Assembly (NCBI RefSeq): GCF_032854445.1
Contig: NC_088298.1
Location: forward strand, 10,897,504-10,961,503
Source of the DNA: Liolophura sinensis
Taxonomy: Eukaryota; Mollusca; Polyplacophora; Chitonida; Chitonidae
DNA length: 64,000 nucleotides
Reading direction: 5' to 3'
Shown: positions 16,496 to 57,700 of the stretch, piece by piece
How positions within the stretch are numbered: the first letter of the stretch is position 1
Layout: the number at the start of each line of letters is the position of its first letter
Notes under the pieces: generated by a model
What the model was told of the DNA's origin: nothing
The model's database searches: none
Seen by the model: only the letters and a program-made list of their open reading frames with translations
Position numbers and translations under genes: made by a program

Positions 16496-16772
16496 CGGGG
16501 CCTCCGTGGCTCAGTCGGTTGGCGCGCTAGCGCAGCGTAATGACCCAGGAGCCTCTCACCAATGCGGTCGCTGTGAGTTCAAGTCCAGCTCATGCTGGCT
16601 TCCTCTCCGGCCGTAAGTGGGAAGGTCTTCCAGCAACCTGCGGATGGTCGTGGGTTTCCATCGGGCTCTGCCCGGTTTCCACCCACCATAATGCTGGCCG
16701 CCGTCGTATAAGTGAAATATAAATAGAGTATGGCGTAAAACACCAATCAAAAAAAAAAAAAAAAAAAAAAAA
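16496..16772 (+). mobile_element. SINE-A, full length, with target duplication
   Basis: Well-preserved copy: head GGGGCCTCCGTGGCTCAGTC (A box TGGCTCAGTCGG), GAGTTCAAGTCCAGC B box, and a pure A tail. Flanked by TCAAACACCTCAG at 16483-16495 and 16773-16785. It lies just past the desaturase 3' end. Confidence 0.92.
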
Positions 16773-17465: not shown

Positions 17466-20400
17466 TATATTATACATTATATTATATATAATGTTAAATA
17501 TTTCAGTAAGACGTCATGACAAATAAACAATGGGGTGGTTTTTGTTTTATTTCTAATAATATGGATTATACTTATTTCTTTATTTATTTCATTGGCGTTT
17601 TACGCCGCACTCAAGAATATTTCACATATACGACAGCAGCCAGCATTAAGGTGGGAGGAAACCGGGAATATGGATATAAATCTGACGGATATCTAAGCTG
17701 TTCAGAAAGAGAAACTGGAGAAAATTAGAAATATGAGGGAAACCCATGAAGCAACAACTTGGTGTTTGTCTGAAGCTGGGGCCAGGAGGACGTGGATTTC
17801 ACTAATATATATTTTACCTAAAGTTGACATCCAAAGTATAATTACACAGCCTTTATTTTCTCATGAAAGTGCTTTTTTACCTACCATACTTCAAGTGAAA
17901 TACAGTAATAGTCAAAGATTTCAGCATCCTGCAGAGGTCAACACATAACCAATATGCCAATGAGAACCTCCACGGCCAAAATATACTAAATTTCAACAAC
18001 AAAATACATAGAAATACCCGATTTCCACACACAGAAGCTAAGTTGGGAATTTAGGATGTATAACTTGACATTTTTACTGTCACAACTTCAGGAGATCCAT
18101 AAAGGGCATGTATTACGTCTTTAGTCTGACGAATTCTGCAGGTCACATAACACAGGACATATTTGCTACCAGCCCCCCAAAAAAAATTCAAGACCTGTTT
18201 TCCTGTGGTTTTGTATTTTACAGATACTGTTTGAACAGCAGGCCAAATTTTGTCACCCACCACCTGATATTCTGGTTTGTTTTTTGCAACTAGTAGGCTG
18301 CCATTTTGATCCCTCAAAAGCAGATTTTTGGCCTCAGATAAAAGTGCATTTAAACGGTTATTTATGTTTCAACGTCAAATCCTCAAAACTAACCTGATGA
18401 TGTCTGCAAATGCTGTCAGCATAGGTTTGCTCTGGTAATCTAAGTTATACTTCTTACACAGGGACTGGACAAGTGGCGCCACCTTGTGGTAATTGTGGCG
18501 AGGCATTGTGGGAAATAAACTGAAACAAGGAAAGCAGGTATAGCATTAGATGGCTCACTTTAGAGATACAGAATCAACTCTGATTGGCTGGTGTGAGAGA
18601 TAGGCATCTTCAGGCTAGGCATGGTGTAAGCTGAATTTAAGCCTGTGCAAGCCTGTAGAGTTCAACCCTGGAAATCCTATATCCACTCTCAGCCAATCAG
18701 CATTGATTCTGTATCCCTTCAGATCTTCTCGAGGTTCACTCAAACTCAAAATGTGTTTTGTCATCAAAACTATGTGAATTCAGGCAGCCATCAATGCTTT
18801 ATGCAATCAAATTACCATGACATTTCAAGTTGACTGAATTTGTGGCTAAAATGAGGTGTAAAGAGCCAAATGAATTAACACAGCCAGTAAATGAATGCAG
18901 TTTTCTTTCTGTTTAAGCGATCTTTGTGATCATTCATTTTAAGCTATTCTACATGAGTCAGGGCATTCATACTTACTGGTGCTCTATCTGGTAGTTGAGA
19001 TGTCCTGTGAACCAATCGTTGAACAGCCCTGGGTTGACATTACACGTGGACACAAGCTGAGAGCTCACCCAATCCCGATTCATCTCCGTGTCAATCTCCA
19101 TGGGTATGTGATTCATCTGAGTCACCCAGGTAAACCAATGGCTCTCCAGAAACCTATCCAACCATGGAGAGATTGATTGATTTATTCATTTATTTACTCA
19201 TGGAGAGGTTGATAATACTGTAATATAAAGAGCCAGTCCAACATTAAAAGCAGTGTTTATACTTGTAAAAACTTTTTCTGACATCAGATTACCTAAACAC
19301 TACATGGTTCACAAACAGCTACAATGTTCATAAAGCCAACCATATATTTCAATCTTTTTAGTCTCTTTAACTCGTTAGTCCATTTAACTTGTTAGTCCAT
19401 TTAACTCATTAGTCCATTTAACTCGTTATAAACAGTATATGTAGATATACTTCGCCTCACTTCGTACAGGCGTGCTAAAAAATGTAAAAAAAGTTAACCA
19501 AAGTAATTATACGCATAGTTTTCAGATATGATGATATGTAATAATTGATATATGATGAGCCTTACTTCATGCTTTAACTTTCTTTCAGTTTACACCTGTA
19601 TGCCAAATGAATGCTATAGCTCGTTTACTTCAATGGGGCACACCTATTGTCTTGAGAATGTATTCTATATCTGAATTATTCAACCTTTTTGCACATAAAA
19701 AACTTCAGTGTGATTTATGCACCTTTTGAGTTTGATTTTGAAGACAAAACTACATTGGCTGGTTTGGTCAATGTGTTTCACAAAAACGTAATTTTATCGG
19801 TCTACACAGAATAATACTATCAGAATATACCTGAATACACACCTTGAAAACATGTAAAAAGGCTGAAGAACAACAGTTCAAGTGTAAAGGAGTAAATACA
19901 ATCATCAGAAGAAAAACGGTGAAAACCCCAGCAGACTTACCTGGTAAACATGTACAGCCCAAAAGCTGACCAGCCCCCGAGCAGACTCACCTGGTAAACA
20001 TGTACAGCCCAAAAGCTGACCAGCCCCCCTGGCAGACTCACCTGGTAAACATGTACAGCCCAAAAGCTGATCAGCCCCCCCAGCAGACTCACCTGGTAAA
20101 CATGTACAGCCCAAAAGCTGACCAGCCCCCCCAGCAAAACATGTATGGCCCAACAGCTGACCAGCCCCCCAGCAGACTTACCTGGTAAACATGTACAGCC
20201 CAAAAGCTGACCAGCCCCCCAGCAGACCCAAATGGTAAACATGTACAGCCCAAAAGCTGACCAGCCCCCCAGCAGACTCACCTGGTAAACATGTACAGCC
20301 CAAAAGCTGACCAGCCCCCGAACAGACTCACCTGGCAAACATGTACAGCCCAAAAGCTGACCAGCCCCCCAGCAGACTCACCTGGTAAACATGTACAGCC

Positions 20401-23400
20401 CAAAAGCTGACCAGCCCCCGAGCAGACTCACCTGGTAAACATGTACAGCCCAAAAGCTGACCAGCCCCCCAGCAGACTCACCTGGTAAACATGTATGGCC
20501 CAACAGTTGACCAGCCCCCGAGCAGACTCACCTGGTAAACATGCACAGACCAAAAGCTGACCAGCCCCCCAGCAGACTCACCTGGTAAGCATGTACAGCC
20601 CAAAAGCTGACCAGCCCCCCAGCAGACTCACCTGGGAAACATGTACAGCCCAAAAGCTGACCACCCCCCAACCGACTCACCTGGTAAACATGTACAGCCC
20701 AAAAGCTGATCAGTCCCCCAGCAGACTCACCTGGTAAACATGTACAGACCAAAAGCTGACCAGCCCCCCAGCAGTGGACCAAACATAGAGAAGAATCGAA
20801 CGAAGAACCCCACAACCAAGGCAAGATCCTTAGAAAGAAAAGCACAAAAAATTGCATTTTCAGAGGCAAATAAAGGTCATGAAATAGTACTTTGAGAGTT
20901 GAAAATTACATTGTTTTCAGTATTTTACTGTACTTTACCATCCAGACAAACCTGAATTACTGAAATCAATAGAACTATCACAATCAGGCAAAATCAGAAA
21001 CTTCACCATGGAGGAAACTTTAGATCAAATACACGTACAGGTTGTGACTGATTTTCGTTTCATAAAATTATCAAGTATATTCTCTACTAGTTCATGATTT
21101 CGTGAGTGAGTGAGTGAGTGAGTGAGTGCTTGGGGTTTAACATCGTACTCAACAATTTTTCAGTCATATGACGACGAAGGAATCCTTATAGTGTATGTAA
21201 TGTGCCTCCTTGTCGCAGGATGGATTCCCACCACTCTTTTATCTAGTGCTGCTTCACTAAGATGACTTACCGAAGGCATGTACTACTTACCCCGCCTGAG
21301 CCATTATACTGATACGGGTCAACCAGTCATTTCACTATCCCCTTCATGCTGAATGCCAAGCAAGGAAGTTACAACTTTGTTTTTTGAAGTCTTAGGTGCG
21401 ACTCGGCCCAGGATTGATCCTGGATCTACTGCTCCCAAAAGGTCACATGTATTTGACAGCTGTTCTGGGGTTTCCTCATTACTAAGATTAACATGTAATT
21501 ACGTGTACCCCAGGATGGTTATGGTTTTGGCACTACCTGTCTGTCTTTCTCCATGTCTGAAATTTGCGGGGAAAATGTTATGCGCAGACTTGGACGAAAT
21601 TTGTGCACAGGTTGGCCTTGGGCCAAGAGCATGAAGTACTAATATTTTATGGGTGATCCAAATTTTCAAACAATTCTTCGCAATTTCTACATAGAACAGA
21701 AATGCAGAGCTTTGTCCCTTTGTCTGCATTAAATTGAAACATTTTAATGAATGTTTATTGACTCTCAGAGTGCCTGCTAGTTTGATTTATTCTAAACATG
21801 CTAGATGTAAGAGAATATATAACAGTGCTCTATGTCTTGTAATTATGTAAGCGAGTTACTGACAACATTTTGGTTCTGTAATGTTTTAGAACAATTTTAA
21901 ATATTTTCATCTCCCTATAAACTGTTAGTTTGTGACCTCAAAAACTCAATACTTTAAACCCCAAGCACTCACTCACTCACTCAAAAACTCAATGATGTTT
22001 ACTCACCAGCCAGTCTTTCCTTTTGAATACAAAATATGTCACCTCCAGATGGAAATATATTGGTAACAACAGCGGAGGTCCAACTGGAAATAAAACAAAA
22101 AGAGAGAAAATAAATGGTCATTTACAACAGAAAAAGTATTTACAATACATACCTGACAGAAATAAAGTATAAGTTTAACATTTGTTGCTTAAGAAATGTT
22201 TGCAACACAAAACAAGCATCAATGAAGTATTCAAATGCAAATTATTCAGAATTTATTCATTTATTTGACTGGCAATTTACGCCATACTCAACAAGGTGAG
22301 TAAGGTGTCCACTGACAACTTACATGTACCAAGCGATAAGTACACGTACTTACTTTAAACTTGTCAGGAGACATATTATGGGATATTTAAACTTGCATGT
22401 ATAAAGGCAGAAGTAAATGTGTGTATTTATGACTTGTCAGGGAAGATGAATTCATGTGTAACAAATCTGGAAGTATTCATGGGTAAGTTATCAAGGAAGA
22501 GGTACATGTACATGTATTTATTTGTAACCTGTCAGAGAACATGGATTGATGTGTAACAAATGGGGAAGTATTCATGGGTAAGTTATCAAGGAAGAGGTAC
22601 ATGTACATGTATTTATTTGTAACCTGTCAGAGAACATGGATTGATGTGTAACAAATGGGGAAGTATGCACGGGTAAGTTATCAAGGAAGAGGTACATGTA
22701 CATGTATTTATTTGTAACCTGTCAGAGAACATGGATTGATGTGTAACAAATGGGGAAGTATGCAAGGGTAAGTTATCAAGGAAGAGGTACATGTACATGT
22801 ATTTATTTGTAACCTGTCAGAGAACATGGATTGATGTGTAACAAATGAGGAAGTATTCATGGGTAAGTTATCAAGGAAGAGGTACATGTACATGTATTTA
22901 TTTGTAACCTGTCAGTGAACATGGATTGATGTGTAACAAATGAGGAAGTATTCATGGGTAAGTTATCAAGGAAGAGGTACATGTACATGTATTTATTTGT
23001 AACCTGTCAGAGAACATGGATTGATGTGTAACAAATGGGGAAGTACCCATGGGTAAGTTATCAAGGAAGAGGTACATGTACATGTATTTATTTGTAACCT
23101 GTCAGAGAACATGGAGTAATATGTAACAAATGGAAATTATCCATCGAAATTAATCAAGAAAGAGAATCACGTATTTATTTGTAACTTGCCAGGGAAGATG
23201 TATCAATATAAAGGAGTATTCATGTATAACTTACCAAGGAAAAAATATTTATGCTGCCAGTTGTAAGGCATGACACCCTTTTGTTTTTCTCCCCAACTTT
23301 TGGGCATTGAGTTGCCCAAGAGAAACAAATAAGCTAACTGAACATCTGGGTCTTTTCGTATCACATTTGGCTTAGCGTGATGTTGAAAGTGACGAAAATT

Positions 23401-26400
23401 CCACCAGTGAGATGAAGCTCCCTGGAACAGATTATAAACTTGTAGTTACAAAATTGATACATACGACACCTTCAAATATCCATGATGATAACTGTAGCGT
23501 ACAGGGTTATCTATTTTCAAGAAAGTTCACTTTTTATTTGTGACATTGCACAGTCCAATGTATTTTAACGTATTTTTTCACATTTTATGATCCCGATATT
23601 TACGGAGTGATATAGCTATGTCTATAAGAACAGCCATTCAATAGATAATGGTACAGGTACATTTGTGCTTGGTGAGATGTAAGTGAGATAAACACTTAGT
23701 TGTCTTGGAAGATATTTTTTCATCAGTTGAATTGTTCTAAAACAAGTTATAGGTTGTTTTTTTTTTTTATCCACAGTAATAAATTTCAAGGGATCATATT
23801 TTTTTTACCGTCAAATGAAACAAAATTAGAAGAAAAGTTTGAAGTATTAGGTATTGATTGCTTTGCCTACATACACACATATATATTTTTACACCATTTC
23901 CCACTGAAAAATCATAACAACACTGTCTGAATTTACTTCATATCTATTGCCTTCTGAGTAATTATTTTTTCAAAAGTTCTGGATTTATCTCTGATTGGGA
24001 AAACTGCTTGACGGATAAAAACTACCCATTTTTATCACTCACCTTAAGAAAGCCTACAGTAACATGATGACCTATGCGATTTAGAGTGGAATTTTTAAAG
24101 ACGGAGAAATGACCCAAGTCATGCTGTAACCATCCTGCTTGTGCCTGAAAAAACACAGAGAAAGAACTTGCCTGAGAAAACCTGTGTAAAACATTGTACA
24201 GAAAACATGTATAAAACAGTCAGAGGAGATATAATCAGTCATTCAATAGGATTGTTAATCTGGAACAGATTTTCAGTTACATAATAGATCTATGCCTTCA
24301 CACACATGCACAGCGAATGTAGCAATAATGAAGCTAACAGGTGTTTTGTTCAACTCAAAGCACTCTACCTGCTGATTTAATATGAAAAAACAAACGTGTC
24401 TACCACAATAGAATATTTCACTTATACAACGGCGGCCAGCATTATGGTGGGCGGAAACCGGGCAAAGCCCGGGGGAAACCCACGACCATCCGCAGGTTGC
24501 TGACAGACCTTCCCACATATGGCCGGAGAGGAAGCCAGCATGAGCTGGACTTGAACTGACAGCGACCGCATTGGTGAGAGACTCCTGGGTCATTATGCTG
24601 CGCTAGCGCGCTAACCAACTGAGTCACGGAGGCCCCTGGTGGCATTTAAAATGTTACTCTGTTGTCGGAGACATGCATGTACAACGGGCAAATTGAAGGA
24701 TACATGAAAAGGCACATGTACTATAAAAATAAGAGTATGGCTTTGAGGACAATGAAAAAAAAAAAGATATTCCAAAAAACAAAATGAGATTTAAAATTCA
24801 TTTTGCTGCACATTTACTAATAACCAATACTTTTCTATGTACATTTTCTGTCAGTGGTAGGGAACAATCTGAAATGAGGTCATGGATGGACATACTGGGA
24901 GTACAGAGCCAGCTTAGAGTTCTAATTCAGGCTCTTTCCACTGTAATTTGTTTTGACAGCTATCACCACTGATGTCACAACACCAGGCTCCTTAATATCC
25001 AGGTTTACCCCTGAGGCCTCAGAAACATTATAGCCGTTTTTACACCCCAAGAAGAAAGCTGTGAAGCTTTTTTGTACTTTTATATATCAGGACACATCAT
25101 AAACTCTGTATTATCTTTTAAGAGCAAGATGTGAATAAACTTAAATGAGCAGTGTATTGTAATTTGATGTCTGTATACTAGTCACAAGAAAACAATCAAT
25201 CTTCATTTACATACAGATAACTGTTTGGTCATATCAAAACAGATCTGCAAGTGTATACCACTGGGATGACATAAAACCTAAAAATGGCTATCAATCTGTG
25301 AACAACTGAAATGACAACATTTTCTGATGGCAATGGGCAAATGAAGTCTGGAGCTTAGAAAACATACGAAAATATAATTCAAGTTGAGGTCAAGTCAATG
25401 CAAATGGCAGTTGACTGACAGTGTCATACCTGTGCTGTAGCCAATAAAATGCCTGCTGTAACCCATGGTAACCAGCCACCTCCATAGCACCATATCAGTA
25501 CCATGGCAACTGCCTCAAAACCAAGGATGGAAACAAAATGAGCTAGTGTAAACCACTTATTGCATTTGTACAAGCCCATTTTCTCTGTCAGCTGACGTAA
25601 CTGTCGAAATTCCAGAGTGAGTTTATCCTACAAAAGCAAGGGCAAAATTAGAATCATTTGTACACTATTTCACTTTGTTATACTTTTCACCGGGAGAAAT
25701 GTATATTAAGTACATAATTAAAGACCAACTTAAGCATCATTTTCAAAATAATTGTAGGCATAAATACCACTCAAAAAACTGACGCTTTAGAGGTTAAAAA
25801 GGTTGAAGATTTTAAGTATGTTATTTAAATATTTCATAAATTTTATTTACAATAATTTTCATTAAATGTAAAAAATGTTAAACAAAAAAAGATTATTTTT
25901 GCACCGCTTCTCTACATCACGGTTAATTCATTTATGAATATATTTATTTATATCCATCGAACACTCTTTCACAAATGAGCTATCAAGCCAATCCACCCCC
26001 ACCCCCCCCCCCCCATTTTCCTGACAGTTATTGATATATTCCTGCAACAACTCACCTCCTCTGGGTTTACTACTTCCCCTATTAACAAAGGCTTGAGGAA
26101 TTTAGAGACATAATCTTTGTCATTGTGAAATGCTGTCCATGCATCCTGTTGCAAAAAGAAAATAAAGACTGCTTTTTTAAACAAATTATAATTTTAAAAT
26201 ATTATGACTCATCCTCTATAAACAAAACATATGACATATATAAAACATATGACATATATATATGATATGACTGTAACTGACATGTTATGACCATTGTATG
26301 AAATGGAACTTGGTTTGTTCACTCACATGACAGAATGGCAAGCACATGACGAGGTAAAAAGGATAATGGCTTGGTATGCGGAAATGAACACCAATGTCTT

Positions 26401-29035
26401 AGTTCTGAGAAATACTGATATAAATAAGCAAAAATTACAGTATGTCGGACAATAGAACAACCTGCATATAATTGTGAGCATCAAAAAAATGTTTCTTTGG
26501 ACTTATGAGGTCATGAAACAAACATATAATGTATTAACTCCCTTGTTATATTTTCACCTCCATGTCTGTAAAAAGGTAAATTCTCAGGTGTCTACAATCA
26601 CAAATATAGATTTATGGTAGATTTATTCATACCACGGATGGACCCTCTACTGTAATTTCTAAACTGGTATCGATCGAACAAAGAGCCTTTTCTTTAAATG
26701 CCACTTCCTGGTTAAATGCGGAAAATACTAAGAGTGCTTAAGGCATACATAAACCTAGCCTAACGTATCTCTTTTATACAACGTCTAATTTATCAGGCTG
26801 GTATAAATGTCAGATAACCTTAAAGGAACCAGTTGTTAAATAACTGGATGATTTACCTTCACATTGTCATCTGTGGTGGAGTATAAAATCTCACAGTGTA
26901 AGAGAAACGCTTTTGCTTTAATGAAAGGATGGGTTTCTCGGCTTTTATCATTTTCACTTAACTGGGTTATGGCCATGTGACACACACAAACCCATTTACT
27001 ACCTTTATCAGCTTGATCAGACTTGGCCTCAAGTATTGGTCAGACTTGGCGTCCAGCACTGGTCAAACTTGGCGTCCAGTGCTGGTCAGACTTGGTGTCC
27101 AGTACTGGTCAGACTTGGTGTCCAGTACTGGTCAGACTTGGCGTCCTGTACTGGTCAGAATTAGCGTCCAGTACTGGTCAGACTTGGCGTCCTGTACTGG
27201 TCAGACTTGGCGTCCAGTACTGGTCAGACTTGACGTCCAGTACTGGTCAGACTCGGTGTCCAGTACTGGTCAGACTTGGTTCCAGTACATCTTACACTGC
27301 CAGGGGCATCAATGCAAACGTAAATCATACAGGTACTATTTATATTTATTTATTTGATTGGTGTTTTACGCCGTACTCAAGAATATTTCACTTATACGAC
27401 AGCGGCCAACATTATGGTGGGTAGAAACCGGGTAAAGCCCAGGGGAAACCCACGACCATCCGCAGGTTGCTGGAGGACCTTCTCACTTACAGCCGGAGAG
27501 GAAGCCAGCATAAGCTGGACTTGAACTCACAGCGATCGCATTGGTGAGAGGCTCCTGGGTCATTACGCTGCGCTAGCGCGCTAACCAACTGAGCCACAGA
27601 GGCCCCTTCATACAGGTACATAGGCTGTAGTTAACAACCGTAGTGTTTAGCAAGACATGCCAGTTTTATTTATTTTCTGGGGCGTTTTTTGGTGCAAATT
27701 TGCATAGTTCAAAACAAATTTATACAGTAACACTTAGGATCGTTCTTGATTCTATGTTGTGTAGCCAGAAATACTAAACAATTTCACTTGTTAAATTCCA
27801 CTTGTGTGTTGACATTGATTTTTACCAAATTTTACAAAAGGAAAGTCACATTACCAAATGAAACTATTCAGACTTTGAAAGCCTATAAAACACTATATAT
27901 ATTACTCATGTTATAGTATCCCAAACATGATTTTAACATGAGAGGTGAATTGGTGTTTGAGGCTTCAGGGTACTATTTCACGGGTAATATGTAGACAGTT
28001 TGGAATGTCAACACTCTGTATATTACTCGTGTTACAGTACCCCCACACAAGATTTTAACATGAGAGGTGAATTGGTGTTTGCGGTTTCAGGGTACTGTTT
28101 CACGGGTAATATGTAGACAGTTTGGAATGTCAACACTCTGTATATTACTCGTGTTATAGTACCCCCACACAAGATTTTAACATGAGAGGTGAATTGGTGT
28201 TTGAGGCTTCAGGGTACTGTTTCACGGGTAATATGTAGACAGTATGGAATGTCAACGCTCTAAATATTACTCGTGTTATAGTACCCCCAAAAAACATTTT
28301 AACATAAGAGGTGAATTGGTGTTTGAGGCTTCAGGGTACTATGTCACGGGTAATATGTAGACAGTTTGGAATGGCAACGCTCTATATATTACTTGTGATG
28401 TAGGACTCCAAATAAAATATTAAAAAGGAAGATAAATTGTTTTTTGAGGCTTCAATAAGGCGACTATTATAGATACACTAACACTCGGGGCAAAAAGATT
28501 TCTCTTCTAGCATTTGGTATCGTCTGGTTCCTTACTCAGAGCTATATCACGATACTGCCGCCACATTTTGCGGCTAAGTATGCCGTAGTTCACAAAGTCA
28601 AACGAGTCACTGGCTAAGTAACAGGCCAAAAGTGTAACACCACATATGCTGGTACCAAATCATCAACACTAGATAATGCATGGCGATATAACTTATAAGA
28701 CTGATGTCATAACTGGTGTCAAATCAATAACTTTTCAAGCTATGTTAAAAACAACAACTTTTATCAAGTAATTAACTGATTAAGTTTTCAATTGTTGATT
28801 GTTGTTGACGTGGTTACAAGGAACACAACAGGTGCTTTACCGTCGCATCCTGTCCGGCGAAATGACTTATGAGTTTGGCGCCTCCTGGGTGTTTTCGGCA
28901 CCAATTTGTGATGTTATAAACTTTTTCGTTGATGATCAACCATTTTTTGTCCTTTTCGCATCGTCTGCTGACCTCTTCGCGAGTGAAATACCGATATTTT
29001 TTCGGAATATCGCTTTCCACCTCTCCTTCGCACAT
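17055..29035 (-). CDS. Front-end fatty acid desaturase with N-terminal cytochrome b5 domain
   Basis: Ten exons on the minus strand join in frame to 434 aa: 28841-29035, 26056-26145, 25430-25627, 24043-24144, 23235-23421, 22007-22083, 20731-20828, 18977-19153, 18394-18519, 17055-17109 (stop complement 17055-17057). All junctions are canonical and phases agree; the summed length is 1305 bases. The protein has a cytochrome b5 domain with HPGG at residues 49-52, His boxes HDLGH (169-173), HFQHH (206-210) and QIEHH (371-375), several hydrophobic membrane segments, and ends [15 protein letters not shown] in place of HxxHH is the mark of front-end desaturases (FADS1/FADS2 group, delta-5/6/8), ER membrane enzymes that add double bases between an existing one and the carboxyl end of polyunsaturated acyl chains. 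The exact regioselectivity cannot be read from sequence. The gene converges with NUB1. Confidence 0.93.
17424..17480. repeat. (TA)n microsatellite
   Basis: About 19 TA units followed by TATTATATTA-type decay, a few hundred bases inside the desaturase last intron. Confidence 0.9.
17576..17668 (-). mobile_element. SINE-A 3' end fragment
   Basis: Contains TTTATTTCATTGGCGTTTTA, CGCCGCACTCAAGAATATTT and GTGGGAGGAAACCGGG in minus orientation, in the last desaturase intron. Confidence 0.75.
18394..18519 (-). CDS. Desaturase exon 9
   Basis: A 126-base exon after GTTTCAG. It completes QIEHH and continues [20 protein letters not shown], ending MLTAFADII with AG left over before GTTAGT. Confidence 0.92.
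18563..18717. mobile_element. MITE-like element, family F
   Basis: The left end GATACAGAATCAACTCTGATTGGCTGG and the complement of the right end GATACAGAATCAATGCTGATTGGCTG (each read here in parts under 27 bases) are inverted repeats of about 25 bases. A second copy is at 54843-55018. No coding capacity. Confidence 0.75.
18977..19153 (-). CDS. Desaturase exon 8: start of His box 3
   Basis: A 177-base exon encoding [20 protein letters not shown] and ending [15 protein letters not shown] with CA left over before GTAAGT. The split CA|T codon supplies the final His of QIEHH. Confidence 0.92.
19674..19872. mobile_element. Inverted-repeat element family C
   Basis: Starts AATTATTCAACCTTTTTGCA and ends AAAAAGGCTGAAGAAC, with the shared core GAAGACAAAACTACATTGG and TAATTTTATCGGTCTACAC. 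About 199 bases in the intron after desaturase exon 7. Confidence 0.7.
19935..20790 (-). repeat. 51-bp array of desaturase exon 7 tail plus splice donor
   Basis: About 16 copies of a 50-51-base unit. On the minus strand each unit reads GGCTGGTCAGCTTTTGGGCT, then GTACATGTTTACCAG|GTGAGT, then CTGCTGGGG. The rightmost unit is the true 3' end of exon 7 (20731-20828). Most copies keep AG|GTGAGT or AG|GTAAGT; those near 20222 and 20131 are damaged. As 51 is 17 codons, use of a more distal donor could add multiples of 17 residues where units are exactly 51 bases. Confidence 0.93.
20731..20828 (-). CDS. Desaturase exon 7: membrane segment with repeated donor
   Basis: A 98-base exon after CTTTCTAAG encoding [19 protein letters not shown] then [14 protein letters not shown]. 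The first donor is CCAG|GTGAGT at 20731/20730. The last 51 bases, including the donor, are repeated in tandem across the next 800 bases of intron, so the true end of this exon is a choice among many matching donors. The first donor gives the family's usual length and joins in frame to exon 8. Confidence 0.85.
21103..21435 (-). mobile_element. SINE-B, near full length
   Basis: Minus-orientation copy with (GTGA)n at 21103-21127, then CTTGGGGTTTAACATCGTAC and TTTCAGTCATATGACGACG, ending at the tRNA side around GACTCGGCCCAGGATTGATC. Clearly related to 1-360. Confidence 0.85.
21951..21984 (+). mobile_element. SINE-B tail fragment
   Basis: TTTAAACCCCAAGCACTCAC followed by ACTC repeats; the 3' end of SINE-B only, just downstream of desaturase exon 6's donor. 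Confidence 0.6.
22007..22083 (-). CDS. Desaturase exon 6: membrane segment
   Basis: A 77-base exon after TTTCCAG encoding [15 protein letters not shown] then [11 protein letters not shown], a hydrophobic segment that matches the FADS consensus GPPLLIPMYF. The donor is CTG|GTGAGT. Confidence 0.88.
22440..23180 (-). repeat. 95-bp tandem array after desaturase exon 5
   Basis: Seven near-identical units plus decayed ends. On the plus strand the unit contains GGGTAAGTTATCAAGGAAGA, GGTACATGTACATGTATTTA and TTTGTAACCTGTCAGAGAAC. On the minus strand the unit part CTTCCTTGATAACTTACCC followed by ATGAATACTTCC resembles the exon 5 end and donor, TTTCCTTG|GTAAGTTATAC followed by ATGAATACTCC, at 23210-23245. 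Confidence 0.9.
23235..23421 (-). CDS. Desaturase exon 5: His box 2
   Basis: A 187-base exon containing [16 protein letters not shown] (second His box HFQHH) and [14 protein letters not shown], ending [12 protein letters not shown] with one leftover base before CTTG|GTAAGT. The intron that follows holds a 95-bp tandem array resembling this donor region. Confidence 0.92.
24043..24144 (-). CDS. Desaturase exon 4: His box 1
   Basis: A 102-base phase-0 exon encoding [18 protein letters not shown] and ending [15 protein letters not shown] is the first di-iron His box. The donor is AAG|GTGAGT. Confidence 0.92.
24408..24636 (-). mobile_element. SINE-A lacking its 3' end
   Basis: Runs from GAATATTTCACTTATACAAC to the tRNA head complement AACTGAGTCACGGAGGCCCC. 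The terminal CAATCAAATAAA part is absent. It lies between desaturase exons 3 and 4. Confidence 0.85.
25430..25627 (-). CDS. Desaturase exon 3: first membrane segments
   Basis: A 198-base exon encoding residues 96-161. It starts [20 protein letters not shown] and ends with a hydrophobic run around [18 protein letters not shown]. The donor is ACAG|GTATGA. Confidence 0.9.
26056..26145 (-). CDS. Desaturase exon 2: end of cytochrome b5 domain
   Basis: A 90-base phase-0 exon between TTGCAACAG and GAG|GTGAGT. It encodes [20 protein letters not shown] then [10 protein letters not shown]; the second heme-side His (AFHND) and [10 protein letters not shown] match the FADS group. Confidence 0.9.
27015..27292 (+). 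repeat. 23-bp minisatellite
   Basis: About 12 copies of TACTGGTCAGACTTGGCGTC plus CAG in desaturase intron 1. The open frames here are repeat artefacts ([12 protein letters not shown]-type period). Confidence 0.92.
27337..27607 (-). mobile_element. SINE-A, full length, with target duplication
   Basis: Complete minus-orientation copy from the TTTATTTATTTGATTGG tail end to the head complement GAGCCACAGAGGCCCC. Flanked by TCATACAGGTAC at 27325-27336 and 27608-27619. Confidence 0.92.
27897..28455. repeat. About 122-bp tandem repeat, 4.5 copies
   Basis: Units start near 27897, 28019, 28142, 28264 and 28386. Each contains CATGAGAGGTGAATTGGTGT and CACGGGTAATATGTAGACAG. Located in desaturase intron 1. 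Confidence 0.9.
28841..29035 (-). CDS. Desaturase exon 1: start and cytochrome b5 domain
   Basis: The start ATG is the complement of 29033-29035 and the donor is GACG|GTAAAG. It encodes residues 1-65 and includes the heme-binding HPGG (49-52) inside [19 protein letters not shown] short acidic leader comes before the b5 fold, as is usual for this family; 5' UTR exons were not identified. Confidence 0.9.
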
Positions 29036-29650: not shown

Positions 29651-29860
29651 ATTTATTTATTTGATTGATGTTTTCGCTGCTCTCAAGAATGCATGTTTTT
29701 CATTTATACAATAGCAGCCAGTATTAAGGTGGGATGAAGCCAGGCAGAGCCAGGGCGAAACCAACGACCATTCACAGGTTGTTGGAAGAGCTTCCCATGT
29801 ACTGCCGAAGAGGAAGCCAGTATGAGATGGACTTGAACTTACAGCGACTGCATTGGTGAG
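29651..29860 (-). mobile_element. SINE-A, diverged, first unit of a tandem pair
   Basis: Diverged minus-orientation copy from ATTTATTTATTTGATTGATG to CGACTGCATTGGTGAG, lacking the tRNA head. The next SINE-A begins at the very next base. Confidence 0.8.
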
Positions 29861-30126
29861 ATTTGATTGGTGTTTTACGCCGTACTCAAGAATATTTCAC
29901 TTATACGACAGCGGCCAGCATTATGGTGGAAGGAAACCGCAGAGCCCGGGGGAAAACCCACGACCATCCGCAGGTTGTTGGTAGACCTTCCCACGTACGG
30001 CCGGAGAGGACGCCAGCATGAGCTGGACTTGAACTCACAGCGACTGCATTGGTGAGAGGCTCCTGGGTCATTGTGCCACGCTGACATGCTTACCCCTCCA
30101 CCATAGAGCCCCCCCCCCCCCCCCCC
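29861..30126 (-). mobile_element. SINE-A, second unit of a tandem pair, ending in poly(C)
   Basis: Less diverged copy starting ATTTGATTGGTGTTTTACGC without an (AATA)n tail; its tRNA-head side ends in a run of about 18 C at 30108-30126 in place of GAGGCCCC. Confidence 0.8.
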
Positions 30127-34181: not shown

Positions 34182-37100
34182 CTACGCCTGGAGGATATTC
34201 TTGACTGTGGAGTTTGTATCATCACTAGAACTGCAGCGTAGCATGTTTTTCCCCGCATAACTTGAGTCTCGGTCCTTAATCTCTGTGGCACGCTTGTAGA
34301 ATTTGGCAGCAGTTTCGTAGTCACGCTGCAAAACACAATTGAGCAAAGCATGAGGCAACTGAGATCAAACTTACGAATAAACTGATGTACATGAACTTAA
34401 AATTCATTTTGAGATTGATTTGATTGGTGTTTTACGCCGTACTTAAGACATCTTGAGACTGATTTGATTGGTGTTTTACGCGGTACTCAAGACATCTTGA
34501 GACTGATTTGATTGGTGTTTTACGCCGTACTCAAGACATCTTGAGAATGATTTGATTGGCGTTTTACGCCGTACTCAAGGCATCTTGAGATTGAATAAGC
34601 TTTAAGGGAAAATGCTGGGGGAATTATTAACAGGTAGATCTTCCCACCTGGACCCAAACACATCACATTTTTAATTTTATTTACAAGATTTGGGCTTTGG
34701 AAATATTGAAAACCATAAAAAATGCTCCGTAGAAAAAAATTTGTCTAACCTGTTCATATTTCATCACAGCCAAGTTTCGTAACGTTTCAGCGACTCGTGG
34801 GTGATGACTCCCAAAACTATCCTCGTAAATGTGAAGAGCTCGCTCATAGAGAGGTTCGGCTTCAGCATAATTGTTCTGAAAAAATACGAAAAGTAATTTA
34901 CAGTATGATTTATTGTTACATAGAAGAATACTGTCACATTTGATGGAGCATGCTGGTGGAGTTAGTTCACCTTACTGTCACATCTGATGGAGCATGTTGG
35001 TGGAGTTAGTTCACCTCACTGTCACATCTGATGGAGCATGCTGGTGGAGTTAGTTCACCTCACTGTCACATCTGATGGAGCATGCTGGTGGAGTTAGTTC
35101 ACTTCACTGTCACATCTGATGGAGCATGCTGGTGGAGTTAATTCACCTCATTTGTCATGTCCATGTCACATTTTATGAGGTGTGTTGTTTGTGCAAGTAT
35201 CCAATTTCTAAGGGTATTGCTTTTGCAGGAGATCATTTTGATTTTTTTATTTGACTGGTCTTTTATGTATGTATGTATGCTTTGGGTTGTACACCATAGT
35301 TAACAATTTTTCAATCATATGACGACGAGGTGTAACTAAGGGTGTGTGTAAATATATTCTGTCGTCTTGTGGCAGGATGAGTCCATGCCACCAAAGTGCT
35401 GCCGCCACTGAAGTGTCATGCTGAAGACACCCCCCATGACGTCCCATCCAGTCACATTATACTGACATCGGGCCAACCGGATCTGTTTCCTTTCTCTAAC
35501 CTATCACTGCTGAGCACAAAGCAAGGCAACAAACACTAAAGTGTTTTAAAGAGTTTAGTATGATCAGGGACAGTCTTTTAGGTTGTATTCATTAATGTTT
35601 TCACTTATATTAAATTACATTTTTGGCCAGAACTCCTCGAGTAAACCACCACTCTACTAGGCACATAAACCAGTGAATGAAAATGGGACAAACAAAATTT
35701 CTTACCTTTTGTAGAATATGACAAAAATGCACAAGGTGAGTGCAGCTAATGAAACACAACTTTGGTCACTTTCATTTGGCTAGGTGAATTTGATAGGTTG
35801 ATATGACAAGTCACTATGATAAGGTGAATTTGATAAGACGCTATGACATGGTGAATTTGACAAGTCACTATGACAAGGTGAATTTGACAAGTCACTATGA
35901 CAAGGTGAATTTGACAAGTCGCTATGACATGGTGAATTTGATAAGTCACTATGACAATCGATATGACAAGGTGAATTTGACAAGTCACTATGACAAGGTG
36001 AATTTGACTAGTCACTATGACAAGGTGAATTTGACAAGTCGCTATGACATGGTGAATTTGACAAGTCGCTATGACAAGGTGAATTTGACAAGTTGCTATG
36101 ACATGGTGAATTTGATAAGTCACTATGACAAGGTGAATTTGATAAGTCACTATGACAATCACTATGACAAGGTGAATTTGACAAGTCACTATGACAAGGT
36201 GAATTTGACAAATCGCTATGACATGGTGAATTTGACAGGTCACTATGATAAGATGAATTTGATAAGTTGCTATGACAAGGTGAATTTGATAAGTCGCTAC
36301 GACAAGGTGAATTTGATAAGTCGCTATGACATGGTGAATTTGATAAGTCACTATGACAATCGATATGACAAGGTGAATTTGACAAGTCACTATGACAAGG
36401 TGAATTTGACAAGTCTCTATGACATGGTGAATTTGACAAGTCGCTGCGCCAAGGTGAATTTGACAAGTCGCTATGACAAGGTGAATTTGACAAGTCGCTA
36501 TGACAAGGTGAATTTGACAAGTCGCTACGACATGGTGAATTTGACAAGTCGCTATGACAAGGTGAATTTGCCAAGTCACTATGACATGGTGAATTTGACA
36601 AGTCGCTATGACAAGGTGAATTTGACAAGTCGCTATGATAAGGTGAATTTGACAAGTCGCTACAACATGGTGAATTTGACAAGTCGCTACGACATGGTGA
36701 ATTTGACAGGTCACTATGATAAGATGAATTTGATAAGTTGCTATGACAAGGTGAATTTGATAAGTCGCTACGACAAGGTGAATTTGACAAGTCGCTATGA
36801 CATGGTGAATTTGACAAGTCGCTATGATAAGGTGAATTTGATAAGTCGCTATGACATGGTGAATTTGATAAGTTGCTATGACATGGTGAATTTGACAAGT
36901 GGCTACGCCAAGGTGAATTTGACAAGTCGCTATGACAAGGTGAATTTGACAAGTCGCTACGCCAAGGTGAATTTGACAAGTCGCTATGACATGGTGATTT
37001 TGACAAGTCGCTACGACAAGGTGAATTTGACAAGTCGCTATGACAAGGTGAATCTGACAAGTCGCTACGACATGGTGAATTTGACAAGTCGCTATGACAA

Positions 37101-40100
37101 GGTGAATTTGACAAGTCGCTATGACATGGTGAATTTGATAAGTCGCTATGACAAGGTGAATTTGACAAGTCGCTATGATAAGGTGAATTTGACAAGTCGC
37201 TACGACATGGTGAATTTGACAAGTCGCTACGACATGGTGAATTTGACAAGTCACTACGACATGGTGAATTTGACAAGTCGCTATGACATGGTGAATTTGA
37301 CAAGTCACTATGACAAGGTGAATTTGACAAGTCACTATGACAAAGTGAATTTGACAAGTCGCTATGATAAGGTGAATTTGACAAGCTGCTATGACAAGGT
37401 GAATTTGACAAGTCGCTATGACAAGTCGCTATAACAAATCCTGTGAAATCAGCTTAAAACCATATATAGTCATATGGGCTGATCAAATGTGGCAAAAGAA
37501 AAGCTCTAGCCGTATATGCACGCAAGGGTCCGAGCAGACCATGAACCAAAAAGAAGGGTGTGATGTGAAGAAAATTTACCTGTTGAGAAAACAGCACAGC
37601 TGGGTTAACGAGGACTGTAGCCACAGCAATGTGTTGACTGTCAAGGTGTGATTATAATGAGATCTTACCTGTTGAGAATACATCACAGCCAGGTTAACGA
37701 GAGCTCTAGCCACAGTAGGATGTTAACTATCAAAGCGTGATTATGAGAACTTACCTGTTGAGAATACAGCACTGCCAGGTTAACGAGGGCTGTAGCCACA
37801 GCTGGGTGTTGACTGCCAAAACACTTCTCCCTGATTTCAACTGCTTGTCTGTACAGCGGGATTGCCTCTGCCAGGTTACCCTGCACACAAACCAAAACAG
37901 AAATAGGTAGCAATGAAGTGATGTACATTGGTTTGCTTGCTATAGAATTTAACTCCTCTGATTCCTAAACCTTCTCGCATATGAAAGAACAACTTTCAGC
38001 TCAATTTACGCACCTTTTTCACCGGATTTTGAGGACAAAGCTACACCATTTGGATAGGCTGATTTCAGGGCTCAGCAAAAAATATAATTTTATCAGTCTA
38101 CGACTAATGCCTCCAGAATGTGCTTAAATAAACACCTTGCAAACATGCGCTAAGGTTGAAGAATTACAGAACTTCCAATGTTATACAAGTCACCATGTCA
38201 CCTCACGTCACTTCAAACGGTGGCCCCAAAATACCTATTATCACCCAAGTTACAGTGCTTCCTCAGTGAAGCCAGGACATCATGTCATCTCAAACGGTGG
38301 CACCAAAATACCCATTATCACCCAATTTACAGTGCTTCCTCAGTGAAGCCAGGATTATTCATGCACACAATGTCAAAGGCATCAAGCTTTGACATTTTTT
38401 TATCATTCCTGATGTGACAGTTACAGAAAAAATCTCCCTATTAAGGAAGCTGTGAACAAGGGATATTGGTCTTCTTTCAGAAATCAAGATAGAAGGCGGT
38501 AATTTCACTGTTTTAAGTGTAAACAGCTTTCAGTTACAGGTCCAGGTACTTATACCATACACCCCACCTCTTCTTCACAATGACACCCAACCGGCCATAG
38601 TGGAGGCAATCTCCCACGCTAAAATTACCGTGCCAAACTTTCAGCAGCCGATATTCCCAAAAGAGGGATGTTTTACAAAATTTACCAATACACATACACA
38701 GGCCTTGTCCTAAGCTATAATGCAGGGGAAAAGCAAACCCTTTCTTGACTCACCTGCTTCTTGTAGAGCATGGCCAGGTGTTTGATGATGGAGGCTACAC
38801 TGGGGTGGTCTGGACTCAGGTACTGAAATACAGCAACAACATACAGTTACATGTCCATTTCTCAACATGTTTCAAATAACACAGAATCCTTTCAGTTTCT
38901 GAAAAATTTTTTAAATTCATTTAAACAGGAGAGGCATGTGGCAAGAAATGAACGGCAAGAAAAAGGACCCCTCCTGGCATTAAGCTGTTAAAGTCATATC
39001 CTTGATGAGGTGAAAAACTGTACTTCTATCAATGGAGATAAAAATAAATTTCAGCATATCAAATCTATGTAAAAATGTAGTTTTGCATTTCACACAGAGT
39101 AACATCTCAGTAAGTTAAAAAATGTAAAATGTCCTTATTCCATAATGATTTTTGCTTGGTTAACAGACACAATACTGAAGTTAGTGGTGAAGGACCTAAA
39201 ATTTTGCCCCAAAAAGGGAATATTGTGCCACTAAATCATGGGCGAAACATAAGATCATTTACTGTGTGTTAAAATACAGATGAATCATCAAACACAAATG
39301 GTTGTGCGGATGGTCGTGGGTTTCCCCCACGCTCTGCCCGGTTTCCACCCACCATAATACTGGCCGCCGTCGTGTAAGTGAAATATTCTTGACTATGGCG
39401 TAAAACACCAATCAAATAAATAAATAAAACATTTATCGACCTAGGGTGAAGACTTTGGGGTCCAATGGACTTCAGTCCTGGCAAGTTACACTAGGGACTG
39501 TATTATTAGTTTAAGTATTCAGTGACTTGTGTACAAAATTTTAAACCATTGTATTGAGAAATAAGTGAGAAATGTAGTGTTTTACCACACCAATCAAATA
39601 AATAAATAAAAATAAATAACACAAATGGTTGTGAATTTTCAGACTGTATAACAAGACTGGCCCAGACCTGGTTACGGATGTGGAGTGCTCTCTCGTAGAG
39701 TGGTACGGCCTTGTCGTACTGTTTGCGGTCGTTGTAGAGAGCGGCGAGGTTGTTAAGGGACTGAGCCAGGTCTGGGTGTTCCTCTCCCAGGAGTACTTCA
39801 CGGATCTCTAATGAACGCTTGAAGAAAGCTTCAGCAGAACTGAAACATAAGTCCATTCATGTACATATCATAGCAGTGACACTGCCCACAGACTCTGGCC
39901 ACATTATGTTCTTCCCATTACTGTTCCTATATCACCTGTTAATCTTGATTTTCATTGGTATATTAGACAGTTTAAAATGTCCACGTACACTTGTAAAGCT
40001 CTAAAGTACACCACGCCCACTAGATAATCACATCGTGGGCTTAAATAATGTATAATCTGCACAGCTGACTTCGGGTGCCATCATTTTCTTTTGTAACGTT

Positions 40101-54700: not shown

Positions 54701-57700
54701 TGCAAGGGGGGCAAAAATAAAATAAAAAATATCAGTTTATATAATTAGTAATGAAAAGGATGGAAAATGAATAGATAACAGAAAAATGGAACAGCTAAAA
54801 CTTGTTGCTATGATTTATTTAGTTAATTAATTGGTGTTTAAAGAGATACAGAAGCGATTTTGACAGGCTGGTGTGAGAGATAGGCAGGTCAAGGCTATGC
54901 CTTGCCTAAGCTGAATCTTAGGTACGGTACATTTATTCAAGCATGACCAAAGGCTGCAAAATTTAATCCAGGAAATCCAATCTTCAATGTCAGCCAATCA
55001 GCATTGATGATTTATCCCTTTAAGCCATGCTCCAGAATAATTCAGCTATTGTTGAATATGTCAAGCCTACATACCTGTTGGTGTGTTCCCAAGGAAGGCC
55101 AAAAAGATGGTACATTTCTCCACCTGGCGAACTCTTGCAGCAGTTAGGCGATTCATGAACTGGAAGAAACAAGCCTTATGTTTACACAAAACCTAAGAAA
55201 TAATTTCACAGCAAATTAAAACCTATATCTAACTGTATTTTATTTTATATTTGTACTTTCAAACCTGAAAGGATTAATATACATGTTTTATGCTGTACTG
55301 AAGATTGTTTCACTCATACAACAGTGGCCAGCCTTATGATGGGAAGAAACCGGGCAGAGCCTGGAGGAAAACCCACAACCATCTGCAGGTTGCTGCCAGA
55401 CGTTCCCATAAACGACCAGAGATAAAGCCAGCAATATACCTTTTTAATAATGAGCTATCAATCTATGCAATCATCTAAGAACTAATAGCACAGCATGTCC
55501 ATAAACTACAATCACAATCATGTATCTGCTTTAGTCAGATTTGGTCACACACAGGGACTAAGAAGGGCATTAGTTCACTTCAGGGACTGAGAAGGGCATT
55601 AGTTCACTTCAGGGATCGAGAAGGGCATTAGTTCACTTCAGGGACTGAGAGGGGCATTAGTTCACATCCTGGGACTGAGAAGGGCATTAGTTCACTCCGG
55701 GGACTGAGAAGGGCATTAGTTCACTTCAGGGACTGAGAAGGGCATTAGCTCACTTCAGGGACTGAGAAGGGCGTTAGTTCACTCCAGGGACAGAGAAGGG
55801 CATTAGTTCACTCCAGGGACTGACAAGGACATTAGTTCATGCCAGGGGCCAAGAAGGGCATTAGTTCACTCCAGGGACTGAGAAGGGCATTAGCTCACTC
55901 CAGGGACTGAAAAGGGCATTAGTTCACGCCAGGGACTGAGAAGGGCGTTAGTGCACGCCAGGGACTGACAAGGGCATTAGTTAACTCCAGGGACTAGAAG
56001 GGCATTAGTTCACTCCAGGGACTGAGAAGGGCATTAGTTCATTCCAGGGACTGAGAAGGGCATTAGTTCACTCCAGGGACTGATAAGGGCATTAGTTCAC
56101 TCCTGGGGCTAAGAAGGGCATTAGTTCACTCCTGGGACTGAGAGGGGCATTAGTTCACTCCAGGGACTGATAAGGGCATTAGTTCACTCCAGGGGCTAAG
56201 AAGGGCATTAGTTCACTCCAGGGACTGATAAGGGCATTAGTTCACTTCAGGGACCGAGAAGGGCATTAGTTCACTCCTGGGACTGATAAGGGCATTAGTT
56301 CACTCCAGGGGCTAAGAAGGGCATTAGTTCACTCCAGGGACTGATAAGGGCATTAGTTCATTCCAGGGACTGAGAAGCAGTGTTTGTAGTGGGGTCAAAA
56401 AAAAAATCCTACTTTTGTCGAGGTTTGCAATCTGCTTGTCAGATTAGACGAGTAGTACGGCCCGAGCCCATGCGTGACCTCATAACCCTCCTTGGAGTCA
56501 GAAAATGAAAATTTTGCCGCGATTTTAGAGTCCGGGAACATCTGTGCAAACAGAGTCGAGGTGCATGCTGCTGCGTGAGGAGATATACCATGTGCCTCCA
56601 GGTGATGCAAATAAATAATTTCCGCATCTCTCGCCAGCTCTTCAGTGCCCCGGGCCTCTGCATTCTTGGCAGCAGCAGCTGCAAAAGCATGCACAATACT
56701 CCCACGGCATCCCGCAGTCGTCTTCGCCTTCTGATGCTTACCGGTAGCACTATGCTTACTAAGCGCCTTTTCGCCCTCCTTCAAACAAACATTGGACTTG
56801 CAGAATCGGCATGTAACATTAAAATTGTCATTCCTAAGGATCCAATCTCCATTCGGGTCGCTGGTTTCCAATAATTTCTCCGTAAAGTGTAACACCATCT
56901 TGGCAAGACTTTGGAAATGGCGCGATTGTAATCTCGTGGCCTCTCGAGATTTTCCGCGAATTTACGGGTGATCGGTTCCAACAGCTGTACTTACTCCCTC
57001 CGCTGCATTATTTGGACATACAGACTGCGGATGGGGTGTGCTCAATTACTGCAAGGCCGGAACAAGCCTGACTTTGGTACATTGGACGCGGCGGGTGTAT
57101 TTTCAGTAAGTGAACTGTTTAAAGTTTTGGCGACTGACGTGTCTGCTGAACTCGGCCTCGCAAAAATCATCCCTTGAATTTCTCAAAGATTACAGTAAAA
57201 TAAATCTTTCTACATGACAAAATTCTTCTGCACAACAAACGGCAAAATCCGACGAATTTCGGCGAATACGGGTTAAAATTAATGAAAATCCTGCTTTTTC
57301 CGTCAAAACTGTGAAAATCTGACTTTTGTCGGATAATCCGACGCGGTACAAACACTGGAGAAGGGCATTAGTTCACTCCAGGGGCTAAGAAGGGCATTAG
57401 TTCACTTCAGGGACTGATAAGGACATTAGTTCACTCCAGGGGCTAAGAAGGGCATTAGTTCACTCCAGGGACTGATAAGGGCATTAGTTCACTTCAGGGA
57501 CTGAGAAGGGTATTAGTTCACTCCAGGGACTGAGAAGGGCGTTAGTTCACTCCAGGGGCTAAGAAGGGCATTAGTTCACTTCAGGGACTGATAAGGGCAT
57601 TAGTTCACTCCAGGGACTGATAAGGGCATTAGTTCACTCCACGGGCTAAGAAGGGCATTAGTTCACTCCAGGGACTGATAAGGACATTAGTTCACTCCAG

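Follow-up and report, generated by a model that had tools for sequence, protein, structure and literature searches.

The tail of an exon and its splice donor are repeated in tandem within a front-end fatty acyl desaturase (FADS-type) gene of the polyplacophoran mollusc Liolophura sinensis. The gene lies in the window analysed here, a stretch of 64,000 nucleotides (nt) from contig NC_088298.1 (assembly GCF_032854445.1, positions 10,897,504 to 10,961,503), and coordinates refer to this window unless another locus is named. The array places 14 strong donors downstream of the donor of exon 7, none of which gives an in-frame product, and arrays of the same kind are found in unrelated genes of the same genome. 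The sequence suggests that abundant minisatellites have overrun splice donors and that the exon's own donor probably works and the copies are tolerated decoys.

The desaturase gene and its exon-7 array

The gene runs on the minus strand from 29035 to 17055 with 10 coding exons encoding 434 amino acids. The open reading frame (ORF) is intact and all nine introns are GT-AG. The protein matches FA_desaturase (6.9e-37) and, in its N-terminal part, Cyt-b5 (4.2e-21) in Pfam, and it carries HPGG at residue 49, HDLGH at 169, HFQHH at 206 and QIEHH at 371. We take three histidine boxes, the third starting with Q, to be the definition of a front-end desaturase, and the protein fits it. The parts of the gene and of its array are as follows, a slash marking the exon-intron boundary here and below.

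29035-28841, 26145-26056, 25627-25430, 24144-24043 and 23421-23235, minus strand: desaturase exons 1-5 (exon model)
22083-22007, 20828-20731, 19153-18977, 18519-18394 and 17109-17055, minus strand: desaturase exons 6-10 (exon model)
20828-20731, minus strand: exon 7, 98 nt, starting in phase 0 and ending in phase 2 (TTT ACC AG/)
20730-19154, minus strand: intron 7, phase 2
19153-18977, minus strand: exon 8, acceptor partner of intron 7, holding QIEH of the third histidine box (exon model)
20731-20774, minus strand: final 44 nt of exon 7, the exonic portion of repeat unit 1 (14 residues plus AG; from TRF, named below, and unit alignment)
20725-20730, minus strand: donor 1, exon 7's own donor, GTGAGT (first intron base 20730)
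20680, 20631, 20581, 20531, 20481, 20431 and 20381, minus strand: first intron bases of the first seven of 14 distal donors
20331, 20281, 20181, 20092, 20041, 19990 and 19940, minus strand: first intron bases of the last seven distal donors
19935-20680, minus strand: distal-donor stretch of the array

Tandem Repeats Finder (TRF) reports the array at 19926-20774 on the minus strand with a period of 50, 17.2 copies and 89% matches (score 1393). The unit is made up of exon 7's terminal 44 nt followed by the donor GTRAGT, and 17 unit bodies, including the exon's own, fill about half of intron 7. CAG/GTRAGT is kept in 15 of these bodies (14 of them distal); in the other two the donor is substituted in one and deleted in one. 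When the array is cut from donor to donor, or at the substituted equivalent in one unit, it falls into 16 segments, twelve of 50 nt, one of 49, two of 51 and one of 89 nt, the last being two bodies. Aligned with the 3 kb downstream, a 60-nt query around the exon-7 donor reaches a score of 54, and the repeat is not due to chance because this is far over the score of shuffled sequences (11.6 +/- 1.6). One 17-mer from the unit is present 12 times in the array and at one other place in the 609-Mb genome, and this lone outside locus has no similarity to the window by blastn (E up to 1e-3).

The donors of the array are strong and almost equal. The 15 array donors have U1 duplex energies of -12.4 to -12.5, compared with -5.5 to -11.5 for the gene's eight remaining donors; weaker GT sites are present within the units and are not counted as donors. 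The motif [ACG]AGGTRAGT is found at 23 sites on the two strands of the window, 15 of them in the array, and three of the other eight are donors of modelled exons. A previous sequence-only reading had described exon 7's tail and donor as amplified in a 51-bp (17-codon) unit, with a usable-looking donor in most copies and hence a run of nearly identical competing donors. The amplification is confirmed by TRF and the shuffle test, and the count of intact donors and their U1 energies, the strongest in the gene, agree with the rest of the description except for the unit, which is 50 bp in 12 of the 16 segments and 51 bp in only two.

Reading through donor 1 gives AG/G TGA, in which the stop starts at intron base 2; it is immediate because intron 7 is in phase 2 and the junction reads AG/GTGA. 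A premature stop is found for all 14 distal donors, the four with extensions divisible by 3 among them. Termination of any distal-donor product comes after residue 316 and so ahead of the third histidine box, which lies at residue 371. Introns 8 and 9 remain downstream of the stop, and therefore nonsense-mediated decay (NMD) of such transcripts is expected. Judged from the sequence, decay transcripts or truncated protein are possible outcomes of distal splicing. By simple arithmetic, a phase-2 AG/GTRAGT donor always reads arginine-stop, so duplication of such a donor cannot lengthen the protein.

A minisatellite would, in the account that we favour, have been born astride the junction of exon 7 and intron 7 in an intact desaturase gene, and would then have spread into that intron, copying 44 nt of exon together with the donor. 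Full-length enzyme would require splicing at the exon-proximal donor (20730), which is most likely chosen by exon definition of the 98-nt exon, so that the copies would leave with the intron. Use of a distal donor would meet the phase-2 stop and leave either a truncated protein lacking the third histidine box or a target for NMD. The extra donors would be functionally neutral and drift like the remainder of the unit, and the desaturase would be one instance of a genome-wide pattern.

Donor arrays elsewhere in the window and in the genome

The window holds a second case, in a gene tentatively named NPHP3-like (the NPHP3 model matched under its cut-off), and a further array in the desaturase gene itself.

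37880-37755, minus strand: NPHP3-like TPR exon (Pfam TPR_12 5.4e-12, above cut-off)
37576-37820, minus strand: tail of the TPR exon with its donor, about 2.8 copies in units of 86-89 bp (TRF)
22413-23133, minus strand: array in intron 5 of the desaturase gene, 95 bp x 7.6, resembling the exon-5 donor region (z 6.3)

The NPHP3-like array has donors at 37754, 37668 and 37579, and both distal ones lead to a premature stop. A test for local similarity covered the nine desaturase donors, the nine desaturase acceptors and the TPR donor. Downstream copies stand out at the desaturase exon-7 and TPR donors (z 26.7 and 25.2), and the exon-5 donor is weaker (z 6.3). There are faint upstream copies at the TPR donor (z 3.2) and at the desaturase exon-3 donor (z 2.6), and nothing over z 1.4 is seen at the nine acceptors. 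The intron-5 array, which matches the exon-5 donor region, is possibly a third and old case with decayed donors. It is not accepted as such, since its units have no donor on the strand of the gene despite their similarity.

In the 609-Mb assembly, three perfect donors spaced 34-64 bp apart are matched 1,159 times (500 + 659), compared with 291 (214 + 77) in a control with the pattern read backwards; these counts are lower bounds, and simple repeats were skipped. For units of 49-51 bp there are 75 matches (42 + 33) and 8 (4 + 4) in the control, which was compared by matches and not by arrays. Grouped by eye, the 75 matches fall in 13 arrays, the desaturase included. Extrapolation suggests some 200 to 600 perfect-donor arrays with 34-64 bp spacing genome-wide, not all of them at exons.

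Thirty distinct arrays, including that of the desaturase, were examined: 18 on C1 (0-19 Mb), taken from the first places listed for the 34-64 bp pattern, and the 13 of 49-51 bp, with one common to both sets. Eleven arrays of the 49-51 bp set were seen with short flanks only. Eleven of the 30 arrays start where an exon with recognisable homology ends, seven of the 18 in the C1 sample and four of the 13 in the 49-51 bp set. Several of these exons were recognised by eye first and searched afterwards, and the longest-ORF rule missed the true exons of two loci (L042 and L053), for which open suffixes were added by eye. The ten anchored genes besides the desaturase are listed below with the value of the match; where a gene name is finer than the matched family, it is one that we presume.

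C1 sample: BTAF1/Mot1-like (PDB 2.6e-18)
C1 sample: alpha-L-fucosidase (1.2e-10)
C1 sample: CIAO3-like (Fe_hyd_lg_C 1.8e-12)
C1 sample: RPC1 (4.7e-8)
C1 sample: ABCC (9.2e-16)
C1 sample: choline transporter, SLC5A7 (1.1e-13)
C1 sample: BMS1/Tsr1 (3.5e-12)
49-51 bp set: PDE (1e-20)
49-51 bp set: PRKCSH-like (4e-13)
49-51 bp set: RRP44/DIS3 (1.4e-5)

Three further candidates were left out of the 11. Two have an exon-end region that matches the array (z 17.6 in L057 and 23.9 in L067) and weak homology, to deoC in L057 (0.0058, with no PDB match) and to Cofilin_ADF in L067 (0.0043). The third, L050, has an exon-like end in phase 2 but the search for homologs found none.

In each of the ten genes, a 60-nt piece centred on the exon-intron boundary, half exon and half intron, matches downstream array sequence with z 13.4 to 43.7 over shuffles. 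At least 15 nt of exon tail lie within the match in eight of them, where the exon part alone gives z 7.1 to 23.3. In the fucosidase (exon part z 0) and PRKCSH-like (z 2.1) genes the copied piece starts at or near the donor, and what is repeated is donor and intron, not the exon tail. The exon end precedes the stretch reported by TRF by about 260 nt in the fucosidase gene and about 140 nt in BMS1.

Counted as far as the arrays reach, the distal AGGTRAG donors of the seven C1 genes number 162, and 160 of these are followed by a premature stop. Of the two exceptions, one (CIAO3-like, +40) is open though out of frame and the other (fucosidase, +75, 25 residues) would be in frame. Together with the desaturase (14) and NPHP3-like (2) donors, the premature stops amount to 176 of 178, and in PDE, DIS3 and PRKCSH-like, which were seen in part, to 26 of 29, the other three being open but shifted. 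Such shares are what would be expected of ordinary intron sequence, and no selection is claimed from them. The CIAO3-like intron (L048:3044-6819) contains about 94 copies of a 40-bp unit with 67 strong donors after the exon's own, and an ORF which we take to be the next CIAO3 exon starts about 130 nt past this array.

The window contains other repeats as well. The same 29-bp unit makes up two arrays, 55552-56377 and 57358-58683, about 980 bp apart, and an ORF of 188 amino acids, zinc-finger-like by eye, starts right after the former, suggestive of a single array divided by a mobile element. A 27-bp array at 35802-37437 (about 1.6 kb) is open over 480-560 codons in several frames and carries no coding evidence, which makes it a trap for gene finders. 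Similar ORFs, including frame variants, recur at 16500-16720, 24390-24600, 27330-27550, 29860-30060 and other places on both strands, and look like one interspersed element resembling a short interspersed nuclear element (SINE).

Decoys, function and other explanations

If the distal donors had a function, they might be better kept than the rest of the unit. The donor 7-mer is intact in a fraction of 0.38-0.84 of the units in six of the seven anchored C1 arrays, compared with means of 0.46-0.67 for other 7-mers, and it ranks 28/48, 23/38, 16/40, 30/52, 16/64 and 8/59 among the windows of the unit. In the seventh array (L053) the unit consensus itself has no donor motif. The desaturase array has 0.56 non-consensus letters per donor column and 0.56 elsewhere. 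No extra conservation of the decoy donors is thus detected in the six C1 arrays or in the desaturase array. With regard to placement, 24 arrays picked from the TRF list cover about 19% of the window, and they are not enriched at its junctions: two of 22 lie inside an array, compared with 4.2 by random rotation (P for two or fewer 0.23). Anchored arrays make up 11 of 30, a share close to that of modelled donors among the strong donor motifs outside the exon-7 array (three of eight), both being small numbers. The simplest account is a high birth rate of minisatellites that strike donors no more than anything else, together with tolerance of the copies.

The tandem donors might instead be functional and act as a rheostat of alternative splicing coupled to NMD that tunes desaturase output, with array length as the dose. 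The strength of the array donors and the premature stop on any distal use fit this idea, as does the effect of length on next-exon skipping for the variable number tandem repeat (VNTR) at an exon boundary in human ABCA7 (excerpts of PMC5954066). It is nevertheless unlikely, as the donors are no better conserved than the rest of the unit, the same layout is seen in unrelated genes and known junctions in the window are not enriched for arrays; in ABCA7, the excerpts of the same paper describe use of the repeat-unit donors as independent of length. It is quite unlikely that tandem-donor introns form a large class in which the proportion of unproductive splicing is governed by array length, as heritable dose control on many unrelated genes.

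An assembly artefact by which the exon-7 array was inflated or misjoined would find some ground in its long exact repeats, with 91 nt common to two blocks. This is very unlikely, given that the units differ by 6.4% on average and that arrays of this kind are present in other genes, spread over long contigs. Recursive splicing, in which each CCAG/GTGAGT would serve as a joined acceptor and donor for stepwise removal of the intron, leaving the mRNA unchanged, has AG/GT in register in 15 copies in its favour and is very unlikely. The pyrimidine fraction is 0.53-0.59 before the array AGs, compared with 0.59-0.88 at the nine true acceptors. The sequence-only reading had proposed that distal donors insert in-frame blocks of 17 residues in the membrane domain, and despite two segments of 51 bp among the 16 and four of 14 distal extensions divisible by 3, this is refuted by the frame, short of RNA editing or readthrough, as the in-frame TGA from intron base 2 lies ahead of every distal donor and none of the 14 is in frame.

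Several points weigh against the favoured account of an overrun donor with tolerated decoys. It is drawn from genome sequence. As many as 19 of the 30 arrays have no significant exon match at their start, so that an exon origin is shown for a minority only. Outside the desaturase, selection of the arrays required three successive intact donors, which biases the conservation test to intact donors; even so, the donor is not clearly better kept than other parts of the unit. All 15 donors of the desaturase array are the best-matching ones of the gene, and when equal sites compete in classic experiments the intron-proximal one often wins. Such a preference would be ruinous for the desaturase, so something must favour donor 1. 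The strength of the exon-7 donor, the highest of the nine, could reflect selection to outcompete the decoys, or only concerted evolution.

Most work on how the spliceosome selects one of several equal 5' splice sites has relied on engineered duplications. The present genome supplies natural examples, introns in all three phases and with several unit lengths that carry as many as 67 AGGTRAG donors downstream of the first. The rule by which the first donor is selected, and the cost of the decoys, could be read from ordinary long-read RNA in such introns.

Comparison with known systems

Human IFI6 (6-16) has a minisatellite with a unit of 12 bp, in frame, whose distal donors are used, whereas distal use in the desaturase is never in frame. 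The IFI6 minisatellite reportedly supplies multiple splice donor sites in the transcript, going by the title of a study by Turri et al. in 1995. Two downstream repeat units of IFI6 serve as donors, resulting in three mRNAs, according to excerpts of PMC4526556, and excerpts of PMC2572611 also cite Turri et al. 1995.

Introns can be gained by tandem duplication of segments bearing AGGT, as described in excerpts of PMC4974935. The desaturase array is similar in its tandem copies with AG/GT but differs from that system, as far as the excerpts describe it, in that the copies sit in the existing intron 7 and no new coding intron is formed. In a partial library, no paper was found on such arrays as a genome-wide class, none joining desaturase, minisatellite and splice donor, and none on a tandem repeat in a desaturase intron in a mollusc.

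The VNTR in intron 18 of human ABCA7 is known here from excerpts of PMC5954066. As in the desaturase array, a tandem repeat abuts the exon, whose own donor is supplied by the array's first GT. A downstream unit can act as a cryptic donor, and the product is out of frame, has a premature termination codon and rises when NMD is blocked. Retention of a single unit is about 2%, the share of transcripts with a premature termination codon is independent of VNTR length, and the next exon can be skipped more often when the array is long. The ABCA7 unit of 25 bp starts at the GT, with no exon tail described in those excerpts, whereas the desaturase unit includes 44 nt of exon; also, polymorphism and splicing were shown by experiment in ABCA7, whereas the desaturase array is known from the sequence of one assembly. 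By analogy, ABCA7 supports use of the exon-proximal donor in the desaturase. Exon-boundary minisatellites with repeated donors are already known from human IFI6 and ABCA7, and the desaturase array adds a case.

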